A stretch of DNA of 64,000 bases from Paremcibacter congregatus. Its GTDB lineage: Bacteria; Pseudomonadota; Alphaproteobacteria; Sphingomonadales; Emcibacteraceae. The stretch lies in assembly GCF_006385135.1 (NCBI RefSeq), contig NZ_CP041025.1, positions 3,627,501 through 3,691,500 of the forward strand, given 5' to 3'. The first letter of the stretch is position 1. Each line of letters opens with the position of its first letter. Shown piece by piece: positions 5,864 to 55,762 of this stretch. The notes under the pieces were generated by a model that made no database searches, had not been told where the DNA came from, and saw nothing but the letters and a program-made list of their open reading frames with translations. Position numbers and translations under genes: made by a program.

Positions 5864-5898
5864 TATTAATGAATTCACAAGCAATATTGGCGAGATCA

Positions 5899-47383: not shown

Positions 47384-48169
47384 TTATGCGGCCTTTCTGC
47401 GCCGCCGGGATACCCCCATTCCAAAAAGACCCAGACCCAACAGACCCAAAGCCGCAGGCTCCGGTGTTTCTGTCGGGGTGAAACTCGCCATGCCCTCAAT
47501 GATGTCATTGGCGCAGGACATGGTCCAGTGAAAGGCGATCTGTTCGGCACTGGCCAGGTCGGTGCCGGAAACATCAAAAACAAATTCCAGGAAATTGCCA
47601 CCTCTGTTGGCCTCAACACTGCCCCCGCCGACGGTGCTGTCAAAAGCTGAATTATCCGCCAAATACATGTGGCCGGCGCGGACATTACCAAATGTAGTAT
47701 CATCCACTGGGTCAAAATCATTTTTCAGTTTCATAAGACGCGCGTCTGTGGTGTTCGTGAAACTGCCCGAATCATAGCGGGCGCCATTCAGGTCATAAAC
47801 ATAATCCCACGGCGTATCGTTGCGGTAAGCATTATCATAGGCATATTTGTTTCCTAATGTGCCACTTGGATTCCACCCGCCTGTACTCATGAACAAATCG
47901 CCATAATAGTAGCGACCATCATTCTGGCTCACACCGTTAATATCAACAAACTTCGTATCAATCCGCACGGTCATAATACCTGCAGCGTTGCGCGATACCG
48001 TCATCTGGGAAACATCAAAATCAGAGCCCCCAATTACATCATGAGAATTTCCTCTGCCGATATAATTATCTTCAATAATCTCACTTGCCTCTGCCGACAT
48101 CACTCCTGCCGCCAGCAGACTTGCCACTAAATACAGTTTCTTTAAGGTCATTAATTCCGCCTGTTTCAT
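47384..48169 (-). CDS. PEP-CTERM sorting domain protein (paralog B)
   Basis: A 261-residue secreted protein with signal peptide (about 7-29, ending SAEAS) and a C-terminal PEP-CTERM tail (TPEPAALGLLGLGLFGMGV then SRRRRKAA). It shares most of its body with paralog A but lacks the Cys/Lys-rich insert. The conserved closing block includes FLEFVFDVSGTD and HWTMSCAND. AGGA lies six bases before the ATG at 48169; a later ATG at 48151 is possible. A sigma-54-type promoter lies about 55 bases upstream and a strong terminator follows, so it is probably a monocistronic, specifically regulated gene. Its function is unknown; such proteins are often matrix or floc components. Confidence 0.87.
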   Translation of the reverse strand: MKQAELMTLKKLYLVASLLAAGVMSAEASEIIEDNYIGRGNSHDVIGGSDFDVSQMTVSRNAAGIMTVRIDTKFVDINGVSQNDGRYYYGDLFMSTGGWNPSGTLGNKYAYDNAYRNDTPWDYVYDLNGARYDSGSFTNTTDARLMKLKNDFDPVDDTTFGNVRAGHMYLADNSAFDSTVGGGSVEANRGGNFLEFVFDVSGTDLASAEQIAFHWTMSCANDIIEGMASFTPTETPEPAALGLLGLGLFGMGVSRRRRKAA

Positions 48170-48224
48170 TGGGCGTCCTATACAATACCAGGTCGCCGGG
48201 ATTCATTTTACATGACAGCAACCT

Positions 48225-48240
48225 AGCAATTTCCATGCCA
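48225..48240 (-). promoter_or_regulatory. Sigma-54 (RpoN) promoter of PEP-CTERM paralog B
   Basis: On the minus strand TGGCATGGAAATTGCT matches the -24/-12 consensus TGGCACG-N4-TTGCW with one difference and exact spacing. Transcription would start about 12 bases beyond, near 48213, leaving a leader of about 45 bases. Known: PEP-CTERM genes are controlled by RpoN with PrsK-PrsR in several bacteria; those genes are not in this window. Confidence 0.7.
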
Positions 48241-48404
48241 AAGAATCCATAATGTTTAATATCAATGACTTAGAAATATAAATTAGGGGAAGGTTCAAGT
48301 TATTGTAAAGATTCCTGACAGTTTTAACGCGACTTGTTTCAAAATGAGACAACCTGCAGCCTTATTTTTAAAGCTCCCTCACCTCCTTAAAAAATTATTC
48401 CTGA

Positions 48405-48432
48405 TTGTCAAACGTTAGATATTTTGTAACAT
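48405..48432 (+). promoter_or_regulatory. Candidate promoter of prsT
   Basis: TTGTCA (48405-48410) and TAACAT (48427-48432) are 16 bp apart, about 100 bases before the chosen prsT start. Apart from this and the sigma-54 site, the 362-base region 48170-48531 holds no gene I can support. Confidence 0.35.
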
Positions 48433-48531
48433 ATTTGCCTGTATGATCCGTCAGCAAGAGGAAAAACCACAGGACCGTTCCTGTAACACGACAAGAAAAT
48501 GCACGCGCCAACAGCGCTGGAAAGGCATAGA

Positions 48532-51423
48532 ATGCAGAAGACTGAAGTACCCCATTCACACAACCGTGACTCTGGCGCGCGCTGGATGAAACGTCTGCGG
48601 ACAATGGGCTATACCGCCCTGTGTAGTGGCGTCATCCTCGCCGCGGCCTCCAACCCGGCAGCCGCCGTGGCTCAGACCACGCTCCAACCCAGACAGGCCG
48701 AACAGTCTTATGAAAAGGCGCGGATTAAATTTCATTCCGGCGAGACAGCCGCCGCCGCCATTCATTTGAAGAATGCGCTTCAGGCTTACCCCGGACATCT
48801 GCCATCCCGCATCCTTATGGCTGAAATTCTGATCAGCAACGGTGACGGCGCCGGGGCCGAGATTGAACTTAATTACGCCCAGGAACGCGGGGCCGACGAA
48901 GACCGGCTGGTGGTGCTGTTCGGGCACGCCTATATTTTGCAAGGAAAGAACGACTATCTTCTTGATGTCATCCGCAATGGCAACCGCGACAATAGCGTCG
49001 AGGCGGACATCTCCTATCTGCGCGGCCGGGCCTATTTCGCCAACAAGAAACTCGCCAACGCCAAACAGAATTTCGAAGCCGCCCTGGCCCGCAATCCTTA
49101 TCTTTATCAGGCGCAACTGGGACTGGCCCAGGTGGCCGCCGTGCACAAGAATTTCGCCGAGGCCATGCAATATGTCGATGCCGCCCTGGCGCTCGACGCC
49201 AGCCACGCCAACAGCTGGATACTGAAAGCCAAGATTTATAAACTGCGCGGTTTCCGCGATGAGGCGATGAGCGCCATCAACGAAGCCATGGCGCTTGACA
49301 ATAAAAATGTTCTGATCCGCCTGACCCGCGCGGCCCTGCTGATCGACGCCAAGAATTTTGACGACGCGGAAAAAGACGTGAATTTCATTCTCGATCTCAT
49401 CCCGCGCGAACCCCGGGCCAAATACCTCAAGGCTATTATCAATGCCGCTCAGGGAGATTATGCCACTTCAAGCAGCACCATGACCGAAGTGATCAATATC
49501 CTGCGGGCCGTGCCGCCAGAAGTCATGGAAGCCAACCCGACCTATTATTATCTCTCCGGCCTGACCAACTTTCAGTTTGGCAATATAGACGAGGCCCGTG
49601 ATAATCTGCATAAATACCTCAAGATCGAACGCAATGACATCGGGGCCAAACGTCTGCTGGGCGCCCTTGAGCTCAAGGCGGGCAAGCCGCTCGCCGCCAA
49701 TGCCGTGCTTGCCGACGCCAACCGGGATCAACCCAACAACCCGACCATCCTGACCCTGCTGGGCATGGCCTATCTCCAGATCGGCAATGTGGAACGGGCG
49801 AATATTTACCTTGAACGGGTGACCAAACTGTTGCCGGATTCCTCTGAAAGTCTCACCAATCTGGCGCGGGGGAAAATGGCGGCAGGGTCCTTTGATGACG
49901 CCATCAACAATCTGCTGAAAGCCGAAGAACATAATTTCTCGTCCCGTGATGTGAAATTGTTACTGATCAAGGCCTACCAACAATCCGGCAACACCGCCAA
50001 AGCGGTTGAAATCGCCGAAAAACTGCTGGAGAAGGAACCGGACAACACCTATTTCCTCAACCTTTATGGCACCGCCATGGGGCTCGCCGGCAACCACAAA
50101 AAGGCGCGGGAAATCTATGAACGGGTCCAGTCCCTGAACAAGGATGATCTAACCAGCCTGCTGCATCTGGCCCGCATGGATGTGGTCGAAGGCCAGACGA
50201 CCCAGGCGATTTCCAGCCTGAAAACAAAACTGGAAGACCTGCCCGACAGCCCGGTTCTGATGCTGGAACTCGGCAATATTTATAAAGGTTTGCAGGACAG
50301 CAAGAATGCACTCTTCTGGTATAAGAAAGCCCATTCCGTAAACAGCAAGGATTTCCTCGTTCTGCAGCATCTGGTCCAGGGCTACCTGATGAACCAGGAC
50401 GTCAAATCCTCTCTGGCTGCCACCACCGAATATATCGACAGCAACCCGGAAAGCGCCGAAGCCTATCAATTGCAGGGTAAATTATATCAACAGGCCGGCA
50501 AACCCGCCGACGCCATTGAAAGCCTGAAGCGCGCGGTCGATTACGACACCAACCGCGGTGAAGCGCTGCTGACCCTGGCCAAGGCGCAATTGCGCATCAA
50601 TGACCGGGCCTCCGCAACCAAAAACCTGCAAAAAGCCATCGTCTGGGATGAAAACCTGATCGACGCCTATATCGCCCTGATCCGCATGGCCATAGAGGAC
50701 AAAAATAAGGCCAGCGGCTTTGCCATGATTGCACAAGTCCGCAAATTATCTGAAAAAACCAGCCCGGCGGCGGATATTCTGTCCGGTGATTTGCATCTGG
50801 CGTTGAAAAACTATACCCAGGCCCGGGAGGCATATCATGCCGCCCTCAGGATTGGTGACAATCCTGTGGCTATCATGGGATTATATAAAGCCCATGCCGG
50901 ACTTGGTGACGACAAGGAAGCCATTCGTGTTCTCGAAGACTGGTATCAGAAATACCCCGAAGATATCCGCTCTGCGCTCAGCCTGGGAGCCGCCTACCGA
51001 CGGGCAGGTCAAATAGACACGGCTGTCGTATTTCATGAAAAACTGGTCCAGGACAATCCCGATATGCCGGTGGTCCTGAATAATGCCGCCAATATTCATT
51101 TTCTCGCCGGGACGAAAGACAAGGCCCTTGAATATGCCCGCAAGGCCCATGAACTGATGCCAGACAACGCCAATATCATGGATACGCTCGCCTGGATCGA
51201 AACCCGGCTTGATAACCCGGAGGCGGCGCTGCCGCTGCTGCGCAAGGCCATGGTCCTGCATTTCAGCGACCCGGAAATTAAATATCATCTGGCCATCACG
51301 CTCGACAAGCTCAACCGCCGCAGCGAAGCCCGTAAACTTCTGACCGAGGCCCTGGCGTCACGCAAGAATTTTGCAGACAAGGATGAAGCACAGGCGATCC
51401 TCGCCAACTGGCGAAAAAAATAG
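48532..51423 (+). CDS. prsT: PEP-CTERM system TPR-repeat protein PrsT
   Basis: A 963-residue protein with an N-terminal membrane or signal segment (about 25-48, GYTALCSGVILAAAS) followed by roughly twenty to twenty-five TPR helical repeats over the whole length. The start QSYEKARIKFHSGETAAAAIHLKNAL and overall length are those of PrsT proteins found in XrtA exosortase/EPS loci. Known role: periplasmic scaffold in exopolysaccharide and PEP-CTERM protein assembly. It is divergent from PEP-CTERM paralog B. GGAAAGG lies six bases before ATG 48532, preferred over the ATG at 48499. No exosortase, prsK or prsR is in the window. Confidence 0.85.
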   Translation: MQKTEVPHSHNRDSGARWMKRLRTMGYTALCSGVILAAASNPAAAVAQTTLQPRQAEQSYEKARIKFHSGETAAAAIHLKNALQAYPGHLPSRILMAEILISNGDGAGAEIELNYAQERGADEDRLVVLFGHAYILQGKNDYLLDVIRNGNRDNSVEADISYLRGRAYFANKKLANAKQNFEAALARNPYLYQAQLGLAQVAAVHKNFAEAMQYVDAALALDASHANSWILKAKIYKLRGFRDEAMSAINEAMALDNKNVLIRLTRAALLIDAKNFDDAEKDVNFILDLIPREPRAKYLKAIINAAQGDYATSSSTMTEVINILRAVPPEVMEANPTYYYLSGLTNFQFGNIDEARDNLHKYLKIERNDIGAKRLLGALELKAGKPLAANAVLADANRDQPNNPTILTLLGMAYLQIGNVERANIYLERVTKLLPDSSESLTNLARGKMAAGSFDDAINNLLKAEEHNFSSRDVKLLLIKAYQQSGNTAKAVEIAEKLLEKEPDNTYFLNLYGTAMGLAGNHKKAREIYERVQSLNKDDLTSLLHLARMDVVEGQTTQAISSLKTKLEDLPDSPVLMLELGNIYKGLQDSKNALFWYKKAHSVNSKDFLVLQHLVQGYLMNQDVKSSLAATTEYIDSNPESAEAYQLQGKLYQQAGKPADAIESLKRAVDYDTNRGEALLTLAKAQLRINDRASATKNLQKAIVWDENLIDAYIALIRMAIEDKNKASGFAMIAQVRKLSEKTSPAADILSGDLHLALKNYTQAREAYHAALRIGDNPVAIMGLYKAHAGLGDDKEAIRVLEDWYQKYPEDIRSALSLGAAYRRAGQIDTAVVFHEKLVQDNPDMPVVLNNAANIHFLAGTKDKALEYARKAHELMPDNANIMDTLAWIETRLDNPEAALPLLRKAMVLHFSDPEIKYHLAITLDKLNRRSEARKLLTEALASRKNFADKDEAQAILANWRKK

Positions 51424-52623: not shown

Positions 52624-54084
52624 TTATTTTATGAAAGAAGGAAGCGGTACTATAATCTCTGTACGCCGAACCTCCTCCCCGCTCAGAAACGTCCCGATCA
52701 CCTCAGTCACCTCCGGCGACAGCATAAACAGATTATGGCCTCCGTTGACCACCGTGACCTGGGTGAGATTGGACAAACCCGCCGTCGCCTCCCGCTGTCC
52801 CTCCACATAAGTTCTGCCGTCGAGGGTGCCGGTCAACAACAGAGTCGGCACATCACTCACCGGCGCACGCCGAAAGTCATCCCCAAGATCTAGTCCGTCC
52901 ACAACGCGATCCAGCTGCGGCATGGGAAAATTCAACATCAGGCCCAATAATGACGTTTTCGACTGTTCCCTGATCAGGACATGGCGGGCTGGCGTTATAC
53001 CGGACGCGATATCCATGCCAAAAGACATGGCGGTAAAGGAAATCACTGGATCGTTAAAATAACCGCGTTTCAACTCCATCACCAGCATATCGGTGTCACC
53101 TTGATCCAGCGAACGATAAAGCCCCAGCAGATACGGCGCACCGCGGCCCGGATCGGCAATCATGCCCGACGCGAGACCCTGCATATGAGATCGCTGAAAC
53201 AAGAAATCGAGCGCACCGCCGTCTTTCAACGGAATCTTGATGGCCAGGGGCTGTGCGTCGAGTTTTTCGTGCACCCGCCGGATCATCGCCTTCACATCCG
53301 GGTAGGCCTCCGCCGCCGCCGGTTGGCTGTTGATGGCCTGCTGCAGACGATCAAAATAGGCGTCGGTCCGCACTGGCAGCTTAACTGTTTGATCGAGGCC
53401 TTCGGCGCTGGCGATCACCACTTTCTCAATCCGGTCCGGGATCTGTTTCAAAGCCGCAAGCGCCAGATGACTGCCGTAAGAAATCCCCCAGAGGGTAATC
53501 TTCTGCGCCTGAAAATGTTCCCGCAACGCGTCGAGATCGCGCACGCTTTCCAAGGTGGTGTAACCGTAAATGTCAATACCTTGATCTTTCCAGCGGTCAA
53601 CACATTCCTGCGCCGCCGCCCGGTAGAGCGCCGTTACCTTAACATCCGTCAAAACTTCGGTCTGAGGCAAGCGCTTACTCGAGCGACAGGTCAAACCCGC
53701 TTTCGACGCTCCAGTGCCCCGTTGATCCAAAGCGATAACATCCCCATATTGCCGGAGCGCCATAAAAAGTGGGAAGCGGAACTGTGGATATTTCGCGGTC
53801 ATAATGCCCGAACCGCCCGGACCGCCAGCCAGATAGATGATCGGGCTGCCGGGAGTCTTTCCTGTCGCGGGAAAACGCACATAGTTGAGGGGAATCATCC
53901 GACTGTCTGGATTGGCCCGGTTTTCAGGGATCTGGATCACACCTTCGAAAGCATCTGCCTTCTTCCCGTCCATGGTTTCAAAGACGATGGCCTTTTCACC
54001 GGGAAAGGCGTCCCCCGCATGAACAGCGCCCTGTGCGCCAGCAAATAGAACACCTGTAAGGGCAAGGAGAAAGTAGATTTTCAT
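52624..54084 (-). CDS. Secreted alpha/beta hydrolase, TAP/S33 peptidase-like
   Basis: A 486-residue protein with a signal peptide (about 1-23, ending AVHA). The alpha/beta hydrolase core has an oxyanion segment YLAGGPGGSG, the motif DQRGTG, the nucleophile Ser in LWGISYGSHLAL and a C-terminal TAP-like region with the Asp in LLTGTLDGRT and the His in NGGHNLFML. These match tripeptidyl aminopeptidase/proline iminopeptidase (S33) relatives acting in the periplasm. AAGGA lies seven bases before the ATG. A LytTR-type DNA repeat lies in the divergent region shared with the next gene, so the hydrolase may be its target. Confidence 0.85.
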   Translation of the reverse strand: MKIYFLLALTGVLFAGAQGAVHAGDAFPGEKAIVFETMDGKKADAFEGVIQIPENRANPDSRMIPLNYVRFPATGKTPGSPIIYLAGGPGGSGIMTAKYPQFRFPLFMALRQYGDVIALDQRGTGASKAGLTCRSSKRLPQTEVLTDVKVTALYRAAAQECVDRWKDQGIDIYGYTTLESVRDLDALREHFQAQKITLWGISYGSHLALAALKQIPDRIEKVVIASAEGLDQTVKLPVRTDAYFDRLQQAINSQPAAAEAYPDVKAMIRRVHEKLDAQPLAIKIPLKDGGALDFLFQRSHMQGLASGMIADPGRGAPYLLGLYRSLDQGDTDMLVMELKRGYFNDPVISFTAMSFGMDIASGITPARHVLIREQSKTSLLGLMLNFPMPQLDRVVDGLDLGDDFRRAPVSDVPTLLLTGTLDGRTYVEGQREATAGLSNLTQVTVVNGGHNLFMLSPEVTEVIGTFLSGEEVRRTEIIVPLPSFIK

Positions 54085-54186
54085 GATACGATCCTTCTAA
54101 AATTTAACATGAAAGCATTCTACTACGCCCCAGCCCGTCTTCCCCAGAGACACTCTGTCAAAGAGGCACTCTCTCCTCTCTAATCG

Positions 54187-54216
54187 ATAAGCGGTCGTGC
54201 TGTGCCGATAAACGGT
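54187..54216 (-). promoter_or_regulatory. LytTR-type tandem binding site
   Basis: On the minus strand ACCGTTTAT (54216-54208) and ACCGCTTAT (54195-54187) are direct repeats separated by 12 bp. The first fits the LytTR half-site pattern at every position; the second differs at one. On the plus strand they read as CGATAAACGGT/CGATAAGCGGT, 21 bp apart. The site lies 26 bases before the membrane LytTR gene and about 100 from the divergent peptidase gene. Confidence 0.65.
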
Positions 54217-54241
54217 AGCGCATTACCGGCCAGTTTCGTCT

Positions 54242-55762
54242 ATGCTGACACTTATGAAACCGTTACGTAAAATAACCGCACTTGTGCTGGCTCTCCTGCT
54301 GTTGATTTCCACAGCCGCCGCGCAATCGATCGCCTGGCCGGAAGAGCAGGCCCTCGTCTGTCCGGTGGTCACGGGCATTTCATCACTGCCGGATTTTATG
54401 GCCCCCGCCTGCCGCCAGATGCCGCTGACCCAAATTGACCCTCAAAACACAGCCCTGTGGGTGAAGCTCAGGTTTCTTCTTCCTCCGGAGACACAGCGAC
54501 CCGACCGGCCTTACGGGCTTTACGTCTTAGGCAAAACCTCAAGCCAGGCCTATTTCAATGGACAATATCTCGGCCAGAATGGGACGCCCCACCTGCGGAA
54601 GGATCAGGAATTCCCCGGAAAGATGGATACGGTATTTTATATTCCCCCCGCCCTGCTCACCAGCGTCGAGAATGACGTAGTCTTAAAGCTTTCGTCTCAT
54701 CATGGTTTTATTCATCTGCAAAGTCCTCTGCATTTCATCGGCGTTGCCCCCTATGCCGATCCCCAGGCTTTCTTCACGCAGGACCTCTGGCTGTCGCTGG
54801 TGCCCCTCGGGGCCCTTATTCTCGGAGCGCTCTATTTCGCGGTCACCAGTCTCACTGCAGACCGGCGCCCTGATAATCTTTTGTTTTTCCTGATGTGCAG
54901 TCTGGCCGCCGCACAGTTGGGTGCGGAACTGGCGCGCTCCCTGTTCCGTTACAGCTATCCCCTGCATGACCTCAGGCTCTTGCTTATTGTCAGTCTCGCT
55001 CTGGGATTTGGGCTTTGCCTCCTGTGGTATGTGGCGCGCAGGTTCGCCCGCCGACAAATGCTTACCTGGATCAGCGGCGGCGGTCTTGTCACCCTGATGG
55101 CGGTCATTCTCACGCCAGGCTTCGACGCAAAAACGACACTGGCCTTCTTGATCCCTTCCCTCTGCGCCACCGTACTCCTGGCTCTTGTCACCATTCAAAG
55201 GCGGGAGAGGCGTCTTTGGAGATATGTGGCGGCCTTTGCGGTCTTCAGCGGCACTACTCTGCTAACCTTCACCTATTTTCATGACAGCATTTATTATTAT
55301 ATCATCACCGGCATCTTATGCTTTCTCTTTGCACAACAGGCCCTTGAATTTGGCCGGGAACGGGCGCGACGCAAAGCCGAAGAACTCCAGGTTGCTCGGT
55401 TACAATTCAAGCTGGATCAAAATGATCAGGCCCGCAAGCCGCAGACAATCACCATTGCCCAGGCGGGGAAGATAACTTTGGTACCGACTAACAGCATCAC
55501 CCATTGTCAAGCCGCCGGCGATTATGTCGAACTCTATTTCGTGGAAAAACACCCGCAGCTGTTCAGTGGCAGCCTGAAGGATCTGGAGACACAACTGCCC
55601 AGCACTTTTCTGCGGGTCCATCGCTCCTTCATCGTCAATACGGATTTTATCACAGCGCTACACAGTTCCGGCGGCACCGGCTATCTCAAGCTCACCACTG
55701 ACACAGATGTTCCGGTAAGTCGTCGCATTATGCCCTCTGTGCGCAGCGTCATCGCCCCCTGA
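54242..55762 (+). CDS. Membrane-anchored LytTR regulator with 7TM-DISM-like sensor
   Basis: A 506-residue protein. Signal sequence near 8-28; a periplasmic beta-rich domain (about 30-185; LWVKLRFLLPPE, YVLGKTSSQAYFNGQYLGQNG); seven hydrophobic helices (about 188-375); a short helical linker; and a LytTR DNA-binding domain (about 405-506; ITHCQAAGDYVELYF, FLRVHRSFIVN, VPVSRRIMPSVR). The layout resembles 7TMR-DISM sensors joined directly to an output domain, so signal and DNA binding are in one chain without phosphorelay. A tandem LytTR site is located just upstream, suggesting autoregulation. The ligand is unknown. Start could also be the ATG at 54254. Confidence 0.8.
   Translation: MLTLMKPLRKITALVLALLLLISTAAAQSIAWPEEQALVCPVVTGISSLPDFMAPACRQMPLTQIDPQNTALWVKLRFLLPPETQRPDRPYGLYVLGKTSSQAYFNGQYLGQNGTPHLRKDQEFPGKMDTVFYIPPALLTSVENDVVLKLSSHHGFIHLQSPLHFIGVAPYADPQAFFTQDLWLSLVPLGALILGALYFAVTSLTADRRPDNLLFFLMCSLAAAQLGAELARSLFRYSYPLHDLRLLLIVSLALGFGLCLLWYVARRFARRQMLTWISGGGLVTLMAVILTPGFDAKTTLAFLIPSLCATVLLALVTIQRRERRLWRYVAAFAVFSGTTLLTFTYFHDSIYYYIITGILCFLFAQQALEFGRERARRKAEELQVARLQFKLDQNDQARKPQTITIAQAGKITLVPTNSITHCQAAGDYVELYFVEKHPQLFSGSLKDLETQLPSTFLRVHRSFIVNTDFITALHSSGGTGYLKLTTDTDVPVSRRIMPSVRSVIAP

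Follow-up and report, generated by a model that had tools for sequence, protein, structure and literature searches.

A membrane one-component LytTR regulator of Paremcibacter congregatus predicted to serve a divergent secreted hydrolase through a conserved direct repeat

A membrane-bound one-component regulator of the LytTR type in Paremcibacter congregatus is probably dedicated to the secreted hydrolase gene that lies divergently beside it, which it would control through a pair of direct repeats situated between the two genes. This proposal draws on the domain order of the regulator, the site and its conservation, the pairing of the two genes in relatives, a mostly fixed spacing of the site to the hydrolase start and the arrangement at one rearranged locus (L069), all of which can be read from the sequences themselves. 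The initial annotation of this DNA had suggested a self-contained signalling unit, a suggestion that the conserved pairing and site allow us to strengthen into a proposed dedicated unit of regulator, site and enzyme. The window, that is, the whole stretch of DNA that was analyzed, comprises 64,000 nucleotides, and the features of the unit within it are as follows:

52624–54084, minus strand: divergent secreted alpha/beta hydrolase, S33/TAP-like, 486 aa (Pfam, alignment)
54117–54122, minus strand: candidate hydrolase -10 element, TAGAAT (weak, by eye)
54187–54195, plus strand: half-site 1, ATAAGCGGT (ACCGCTTAT on the minus strand), predicted from sequence and motif model
54208–54216, plus strand: half-site 2, ATAAACGGT (ACCGTTTAT on the minus strand), predicted from sequence and motif model
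54241–54246, plus strand: predicted -10 element of the regulator promoter, TATGCT, 24 nt past half-site 2, 7 nt ahead of ATG 54254
54254–55762, plus strand: regulator gene, 502 aa, with ATG 54254 as the likelier start; order of parts by AlphaFold2 and Pfam: signal helix, periplasmic beta-sandwich, seven transmembrane helices, long helix, LytTR domain
54347–54751, plus strand: periplasmic beta-sandwich (model residues 32–166), with a fold like that of GH2 sugar-binding domains
54761–55435, plus strand: seven-helix membrane part (model residues 170–394, helices 178 to 394)
55439–55753, plus strand: LytTR DNA-binding domain (model residues 396–500; Pfam PF04397)

The regulator frame offers two in-frame start codons. 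A start at ATG 54242 would yield a protein of 506 aa (open frame 54242–55762, plus strand), and ATG 54254 is considered the likelier of the two. Pfam assigns the C-terminal part to LytTR (PF04397) with an E of 2.8e-18 (66.4 bits against a cut-off of 22.6), and at E 0.01 finds no other family in the protein. An AlphaFold2 model computed from the 502-aa form of the window regulator and 16 relatives (mean pLDDT 85.6, pTM 0.67) extends the last of the seven helices as a long linker into the LytTR domain. The initial claim that a periplasmic domain, seven helices and a LytTR domain are carried in one chain therefore holds, with the single open frame, Pfam and the structural model in agreement. When compared with solved structures by VIA-align, the beta-sandwich resembled the N-terminal domains of GH2 beta-glucuronidases (Z about 11); two of its cysteines are conserved in every aligned row. 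The seven-helix bundle matched bacteriorhodopsin and GPCR folds with a Z of about 13, a value that is common for helical bundles, and the LytTR domain scored 16.5 to 3d6w and 14.4 to AgrA (4xqn). The match of the modelled LytTR domain to AgrA-DNA structures counts in favor of the explanation offered here.

In the product of the divergent gene, Pfam recognizes Abhydrolase_1 above the cut-off (E 3.6e-18) and the TAP-like family PF08386 just under it, and a signal peptide can be recognized by eye. The nucleophile Ser202, within a GxSxG motif, is kept in 24/24 aligned sequences; Asp422 and His450 are the probable remaining catalytic residues. The solved chains that score best against this enzyme are Hip1, a protease and carboxylesterase A. 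The gene had initially been labelled a secreted peptidase. A secreted alpha/beta hydrolase is consistent with the signal peptide, and activity as a peptidase is what the S33/TAP-like family alone would suggest.

The two half-sites are separated by 12 bases and lie 21 bp apart from start to start, the reverse complement of the pair being ACCGTTTAT-N12-ACCGCTTAT. Direct repeats with this N12 spacing, ahead of the regulator and in the region divergent to the hydrolase, are present as initially described. The distance between repeat and gene, earlier put at 26 bases, is nearly so if counted to ATG 54242 (25 bases) and becomes 37 bases with the likelier ATG 54254. A half-site model with consensus TCTGTAAACGGT, applied as two copies at a distance of 21 bp, was seeded from one relative, and the window never took part in its training; it gave the window pair a score of 23.0, and 0/200 shuffles scored as high. 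The predicted site has the paired-direct-repeat form that LytTR proteins use (10–13 bp apart) and is kept in relatives, and its motif fits the LytTR consensus. When a pattern written to fit it, AARCGGY-N14-AARCGGY, was scanned across the 4.19-Mb genome, the one perfect match was the window site itself, with 12 further places at one mismatch. About 0.5 perfect matches would be expected by chance (hand arithmetic), so that the single match in the genome speaks against a regulon and is not itself proof of significance. With as many as two mismatches allowed, a reversed control outnumbers the pattern (686 and 654 versus 268 and 274 matches), and the genome thus gives no indication that a larger set of sites exists.

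A search with the sensor part of the regulator matched 31 of 296 genomes drawn from the order; this count includes the window's own genome and covers 14 of 79 genera, and none of the other matches came from the window's family. In a whole-protein search of 32 genomes of the family, matches in other genomes were confined to the C-terminal LytTR part, and no ortholog was found in the other searched genomes of the window's genus and family. At E 1e-15, a class-level search with the whole protein returned one other genome among 385, and a profile search of the phylum matched 12/398 genomes, again including the window's own. A contig scan with the window protein alone as query retrieved no relative, and the 20-row sensor alignment was too diverse to serve as a scan query. 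A named collection gave 23 further loci, from Kordiimonas, other alphaproteobacterial assemblies, Maricaulis and Pseudoalteromonas, some of which are places already counted. L085, from the cultured relative Kordiimonas gwangyangensis DSM 19435, has the same unit. Neighboring genes were examined at 60 places; one fragment lacking the sensor (L103) was dropped, leaving 59, made up of 50 one-component and nine two-component loci. Duplicate places (L082–L086, L089, L092 and L102) were not recounted in the pairing.

Loci were picked by similarity of the regulator alone, and the presence of a hydrolase neighbor is therefore an independent observation. Such a neighbor was found in 50/50 one-component loci, divergent in 49 and downstream on the same strand in L069, so that regulator and hydrolase are conserved together in relatives, as would be expected of the unit first proposed. 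The partner enzymes comprise 28 of family S33, 20 of PF00144, one trypsin-like (trypsin-ankyrin) and one formamidase-like, with families assigned by Pfam for 20 neighbors and the window and by tblastn or blastp to these for the others; at L097 the best neighbor match was a second PF00144 gene farther off, and a divergent PF00144 gene is also present. An S33 enzyme as an essential part of the unit is ruled out, since 20 loci have PF00144 enzymes instead. Within 1.5-kb flanks of 32 other LytTR loci of the family, tblastn detected no such hydrolase neighbor and no repeat was found (0/32 for each), ruling out the repeat as a general trait of LytTR genes, and the same flanks of the three other LytTR matches in the window's own genome (L001, L003 and L004) contained neither hydrolase neighbor nor site. 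The relative paired with the trypsin-like protease bearing ankyrin repeats lies at 5871–9056 of L072. In L056 and L096 the regulator frames are broken (stops or a frame break), and the hydrolase neighbor is still present.

A test independent of any motif was applied to the upstream regions of 20 relatives. Repeated 9-mers with at most one mismatch were found at a spacing of 21 bp in 6/20, against 0–2 of 20 at other spacings from 10 to 49, and shuffled sequences gave a mean of 0.3 and a maximum of 2 (200 runs). Near-copies (L041, L046 and L049), together with L056 and L060–L064, were excluded from this spacing test and from motif training. With leave-one-out half-site models, 17 of the 20 relatives were matched by 0/200 shuffles; L037, L042 and L059 were not significant because the 200-base frame began too far in, and their repeats lie farther up, that of L037 fitting a generic consensus only (17/18). 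Across the 50 one-component loci, a repeat pair at 20–22 bp (nearly always 21) scores at least 20 in 38, and 11 others have weaker pairs, ten of them scoring 11–19, a range without a clean chance rate, and L037 being recognized by the generic consensus only. L115 has the hydrolase pairing and no recognizable repeat. Absence of the repeat upstream of orthologs, which had been named beforehand as the observation that would refute the unit, is among these 50 loci confined to L115, and the unit is not refuted on this count.

Seventeen loci (L058 among them) served for training, and those of them among the 38 high scorers are not independent. Outside the training set, 13/13 Pseudoalteromonas loci score 22.7–29.2, and L072, with its trypsin partner, scores 28.4; the pairs of L088 and L096 were found only with a wider upstream frame. 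When both strands of 63 loci were scanned (494,464 bases, including L102, a copy of L045), 44 pairs scoring at least 20 were obtained in 39 loci, and by coordinates 44/44 adjoin a hydrolase, in 38 loci between the divergent genes and in addition in L069. Over-long mechanical reading frames run across some of the strong sites (L066, L074, the Pseudoalteromonas loci). In several of the Pseudoalteromonas loci L090–L101 the first ATG of the regulator frame overlaps half-site 1, indicating that the N-terminus of the frame is probably too long or that the site is transcribed.

The placement of the repeat relative to the hydrolase is largely constant. The distance to the hydrolase ATG, with start codons picked by a simple rule, is 60–76 nt in 35/44 loci and 73–76 nt in 24/44, and is similar in S33 and PF00144 enzymes, two families with no fold in common. 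Nine of the 44 loci fall outside 60–76 nt, of which two or more look like mis-picked starts; L056 and L058 (37 and 31 nt) have later starts at about 76 and 73 nt by hand count. The window is an outlier, its hydrolase start lying 99 nt from the site, against the usual value of about 74. In the rearranged locus L069 (3239–6511) both genes are on one strand, with the regulator upstream. The strong pair sits between the end of the regulator and the hydrolase, to which it has its customary orientation, 60 nt from the hydrolase ATG; no repeat pair was found before the regulator. Since the site of L069 precedes the hydrolase and not the regulator, the hydrolase looks like the main target, not merely a possible one. 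The early suggestion that the regulator may control its neighbor is supported by the conserved pairing, the spacing of the site and the L069 arrangement, the direction of control being one that we infer.

On the regulator side, a script located a TA-led hexamer 22–26 nt past half-site 2, followed 5–9 nt on by a start codon, in 15/20 loci, and L053 would raise this count to 16 by eye. Counts of TA at offsets 23, 24 and 25 were 6, 4 and 9, with at most 4 at any other offset from 5 to 44. The regulator transcript is predicted to be leaderless, starting at 54254 in the window. The position of the hexamer would put the site just upstream of the predicted -35 of the regulator promoter, which suggests activation. 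No fixed or conserved -10 spacing was seen among relatives on the hydrolase side, which counts against activation. In L108 and L109, which belong to another class, the site ends 13 nt before the candidate regulator ATG, a placement that fits autorepression better than autoactivation.

Under the proposed mechanism, the periplasmic beta-sandwich and the seven-helix bundle would take up an extracytoplasmic signal, which the long last helix would relay to the LytTR domain on the cytoplasmic side of the membrane. A LytTR dimer may then grip both half-sites, which are spaced by two helical turns between the divergent genes. Occupancy of the site, which touches the predicted -35 position of the regulator promoter, would most likely activate both this promoter and that of the hydrolase. 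If control is indeed dedicated, activation is its likely sign.

Several other explanations can be set against dedicated activation. The predicted site might in principle have arisen by chance or be a DNA feature unrelated to LytTR binding. This is very improbable, however, given that repeats at 20–22 bp, nearly always 21, are kept from Kordiimonas to Pseudoalteromonas, that no strong pair occurs elsewhere in the scanned loci or in the 32 other LytTR loci, and that the motif fits the LytTR consensus. Nor is the site likely to serve the regulator gene only, with the hydrolase a bystander in a conserved pair. Its tight placement against the predicted leaderless regulator promoter in 15/20 loci is what pure autoregulation would produce, but the site of L069 stands before the hydrolase with none before the regulator, unrelated enzymes share the spacing between site and hydrolase start in 35/44 loci, and the hydrolase neighbor itself is found in 50/50 one-component loci.

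A repressor would share the core of dedicated control and differ in sign, the membrane-held protein blocking the hydrolase promoter and its own until a signal frees the site. We regard this as doubtful, though it has a precedent in CoxC, the best-studied membrane LytTR regulator found, which represses from direct repeats and lets go on CO (PMC11347149), and the 13-nt placement in L108 and L109 is in its favor. Against it, the site lies upstream of, and not over, the predicted regulator -35/-10 in 15/20 loci and 60–76 nt before the hydrolase ATG in 35/44, and the CoxC authors state that LytTR regulators for the most part activate, from positions upstream of the -35 (PMC11347149). Control of many genes may be the role of HigX in Caulobacter, a membrane LytTR protein with a hydrolase neighbor for which 596 ChIP peaks are given (PMC13384398). 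That the window protein is a global regulator of this kind is nevertheless quite unlikely: the HigX motif described there is a different, inverted repeat (PMC13384398), the window site is the only perfect pattern match in 4.19 Mb, with 12 one-mismatch places counted whether or not in a promoter, the pattern at up to two mismatches is rarer than its reversed control, and no strong pair lies away from a hydrolase in the 494 kb scanned.

The sensor of the proposed unit is also found with a two-component output. At L078 (4820–7230; the same place as L058) the same sensor, an S33 neighbor and a strong repeat pair are found together with a histidine kinase (PF06580), and the gene for a receiver-LytTR response regulator comes next. 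This locus amounts to a natural swap, with the sensor domain on a LytS-type histidine kinase, and like L069 it points to the hydrolase as the target. Further two-component relatives, L112, L113, L114 and L116, have PF00144 or S33 neighbors, and the half-site model sees no repeat in these four. More distant two-component relatives (L070, L073, L076 and L077) are divergent from small outer-membrane beta-barrel genes, not hydrolases, and have no strong repeat pair.

Pairwise identities of regulator and S33 hydrolase are correlated across 18 loci (r 0.90, Mantel 0/2000), a result in favor of the proposed control that shared descent alone could also yield. In the regulator tree the window groups with four loci from outside its class, L108–L111 (100/100 support), suggesting transfer of the unit's regulator between lineages; the hydrolase tree is compatible with either answer. 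Mapping of the three partner labels onto the regulator tree requires at least three changes, where two is the least possible and shuffled labels average 12.4. Of these label changes, two involve L069 and L072, long branches that meet each other and whose place is unsure, and L071 is outside the tree. It is possible, and we advance it tentatively, that the unit is a portable induction cassette, in which one sensor lineage came to serve secreted enzymes with at least three folds unrelated to one another, its operator most often lying about 74 nt ahead of the enzyme gene and its output having switched between one- and two-component forms. If this were true, the sensor would read a cue common to the substrates or products of these enzymes, extracellular peptides, amides or esters for example, and induce the enzyme acting on it.

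Relationships to known systems can be drawn at several levels. With AgrA and ComE (structures 4xqn, 3bs1 and 4cbv) the unit shares the LytTR fold and repeats at about two-turn spacing, as in the AgrA/ComE-type consensus; AgrA and ComE are soluble response regulators. LytTR regulatory systems encode a membrane inhibitor and a LytTR protein on separate genes, and membership of that group is ruled out because sensor and LytTR share one open frame here. The 7TMR-DISM proteins (PF07695), bacterial seven-transmembrane receptors with diverse intracellular signalling modules, are an architecture already known (PMC1592074). The predicted model is like them in its extracytoplasmic beta-sandwich, seven helices and exchangeable output, here LytTR or His_kinase; the window protein has no match to PF07695, and 5/20 aligned members match it at E up to 1 (best 2.1e-4). 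LytS/LytTR systems such as BtsS-BtsR (PMC10653868) also combine seven-transmembrane sensing with LytTR output, and the relatives L058, L112–L114 and L116 are two-component. The window regulator differs from BtsS-BtsR in being one-component, without kinase or receiver.

Among membrane one-component proteins, CoxC of Afipia carboxidovorans is an MHYT-LytTR regulator with three direct repeats overlapping the -35, the cox genes being repressed until CO is present (PMC11347149). It is like the window regulator in joining a membrane sensor to a C-terminal LytTR domain in one chain and in the spacing of two helical turns between the direct repeats of the target promoter, but differs in its MHYT gas sensor, its three 8-bp repeats TTNNNGCN, its action as a CO-relieved repressor and its target, the cox operon. 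Membership of the CoxC/MHYT-LytTR subfamily is ruled out, as Pfam at E 0.01 gives LytTR only and no MHYT domain for the window protein. HigX of Caulobacter crescentus has an uncharacterised hydrolase gene of COG4188 next to it in the aligned genomes, five of them excepted (PMC13384398). Like the window regulator it is a membrane LytTR one-component protein next to a hydrolase gene; it differs in its four helices, lack of a periplasmic domain, 8-bp inverted-repeat motif and many ChIP peaks, and the sections consulted describe no control of the adjoining hydrolase by HigX (PMC13384398). The window protein can be rejected as a HigX ortholog, its model having seven predicted helices and a periplasmic domain against four helices and none in HigX. 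All Caulobacter LytTR proteins have transmembrane regions according to a survey (PMC10269533).

Among the open-licence papers listed in searches, no report of a unit of sensor, hydrolase and repeat was found. The parts, membrane LytTR one-component proteins and the 7TMR-DISM architecture are known; what appears to be new is the pairing of this sensor with a secreted hydrolase through a conserved site. Targets of membrane-held transcription factors are hard to assign. In this case the comparison of genomes indicates a single regulator, a single site and a single target gene, and most loci preserve the spacing, over two bacterial classes and with enzymes unrelated to one another. The unit offers a small, self-contained system in which to approach a long-standing question, the means by which a LytTR protein anchored in the membrane locates a promoter and controls it. 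The sensor also occurs, beside sites of one kind, with either a one-component or a two-component output, a natural pair in which interconversion of these architectures could be studied. The presence of a hydrolase neighbor beside HigX too is a hint that service to extracytoplasmic hydrolases may be more widespread among membrane LytTR proteins.

Two other observations were made in the same genome. A further LytTR gene (L080, 3256–7252) encodes a protein of 281 aa with a hydrophobic N-terminal part and is flanked by genes for proteins of 223 and 273 aa that have near-identical N-termini and appear by eye to be secreted. Elsewhere in the window, at 47384–51423, a PEP-CTERM sorting-domain protein is encoded beside a TPR protein, the latter matching PrsT of the XrtA/PEP-CTERM system above the cut-off.
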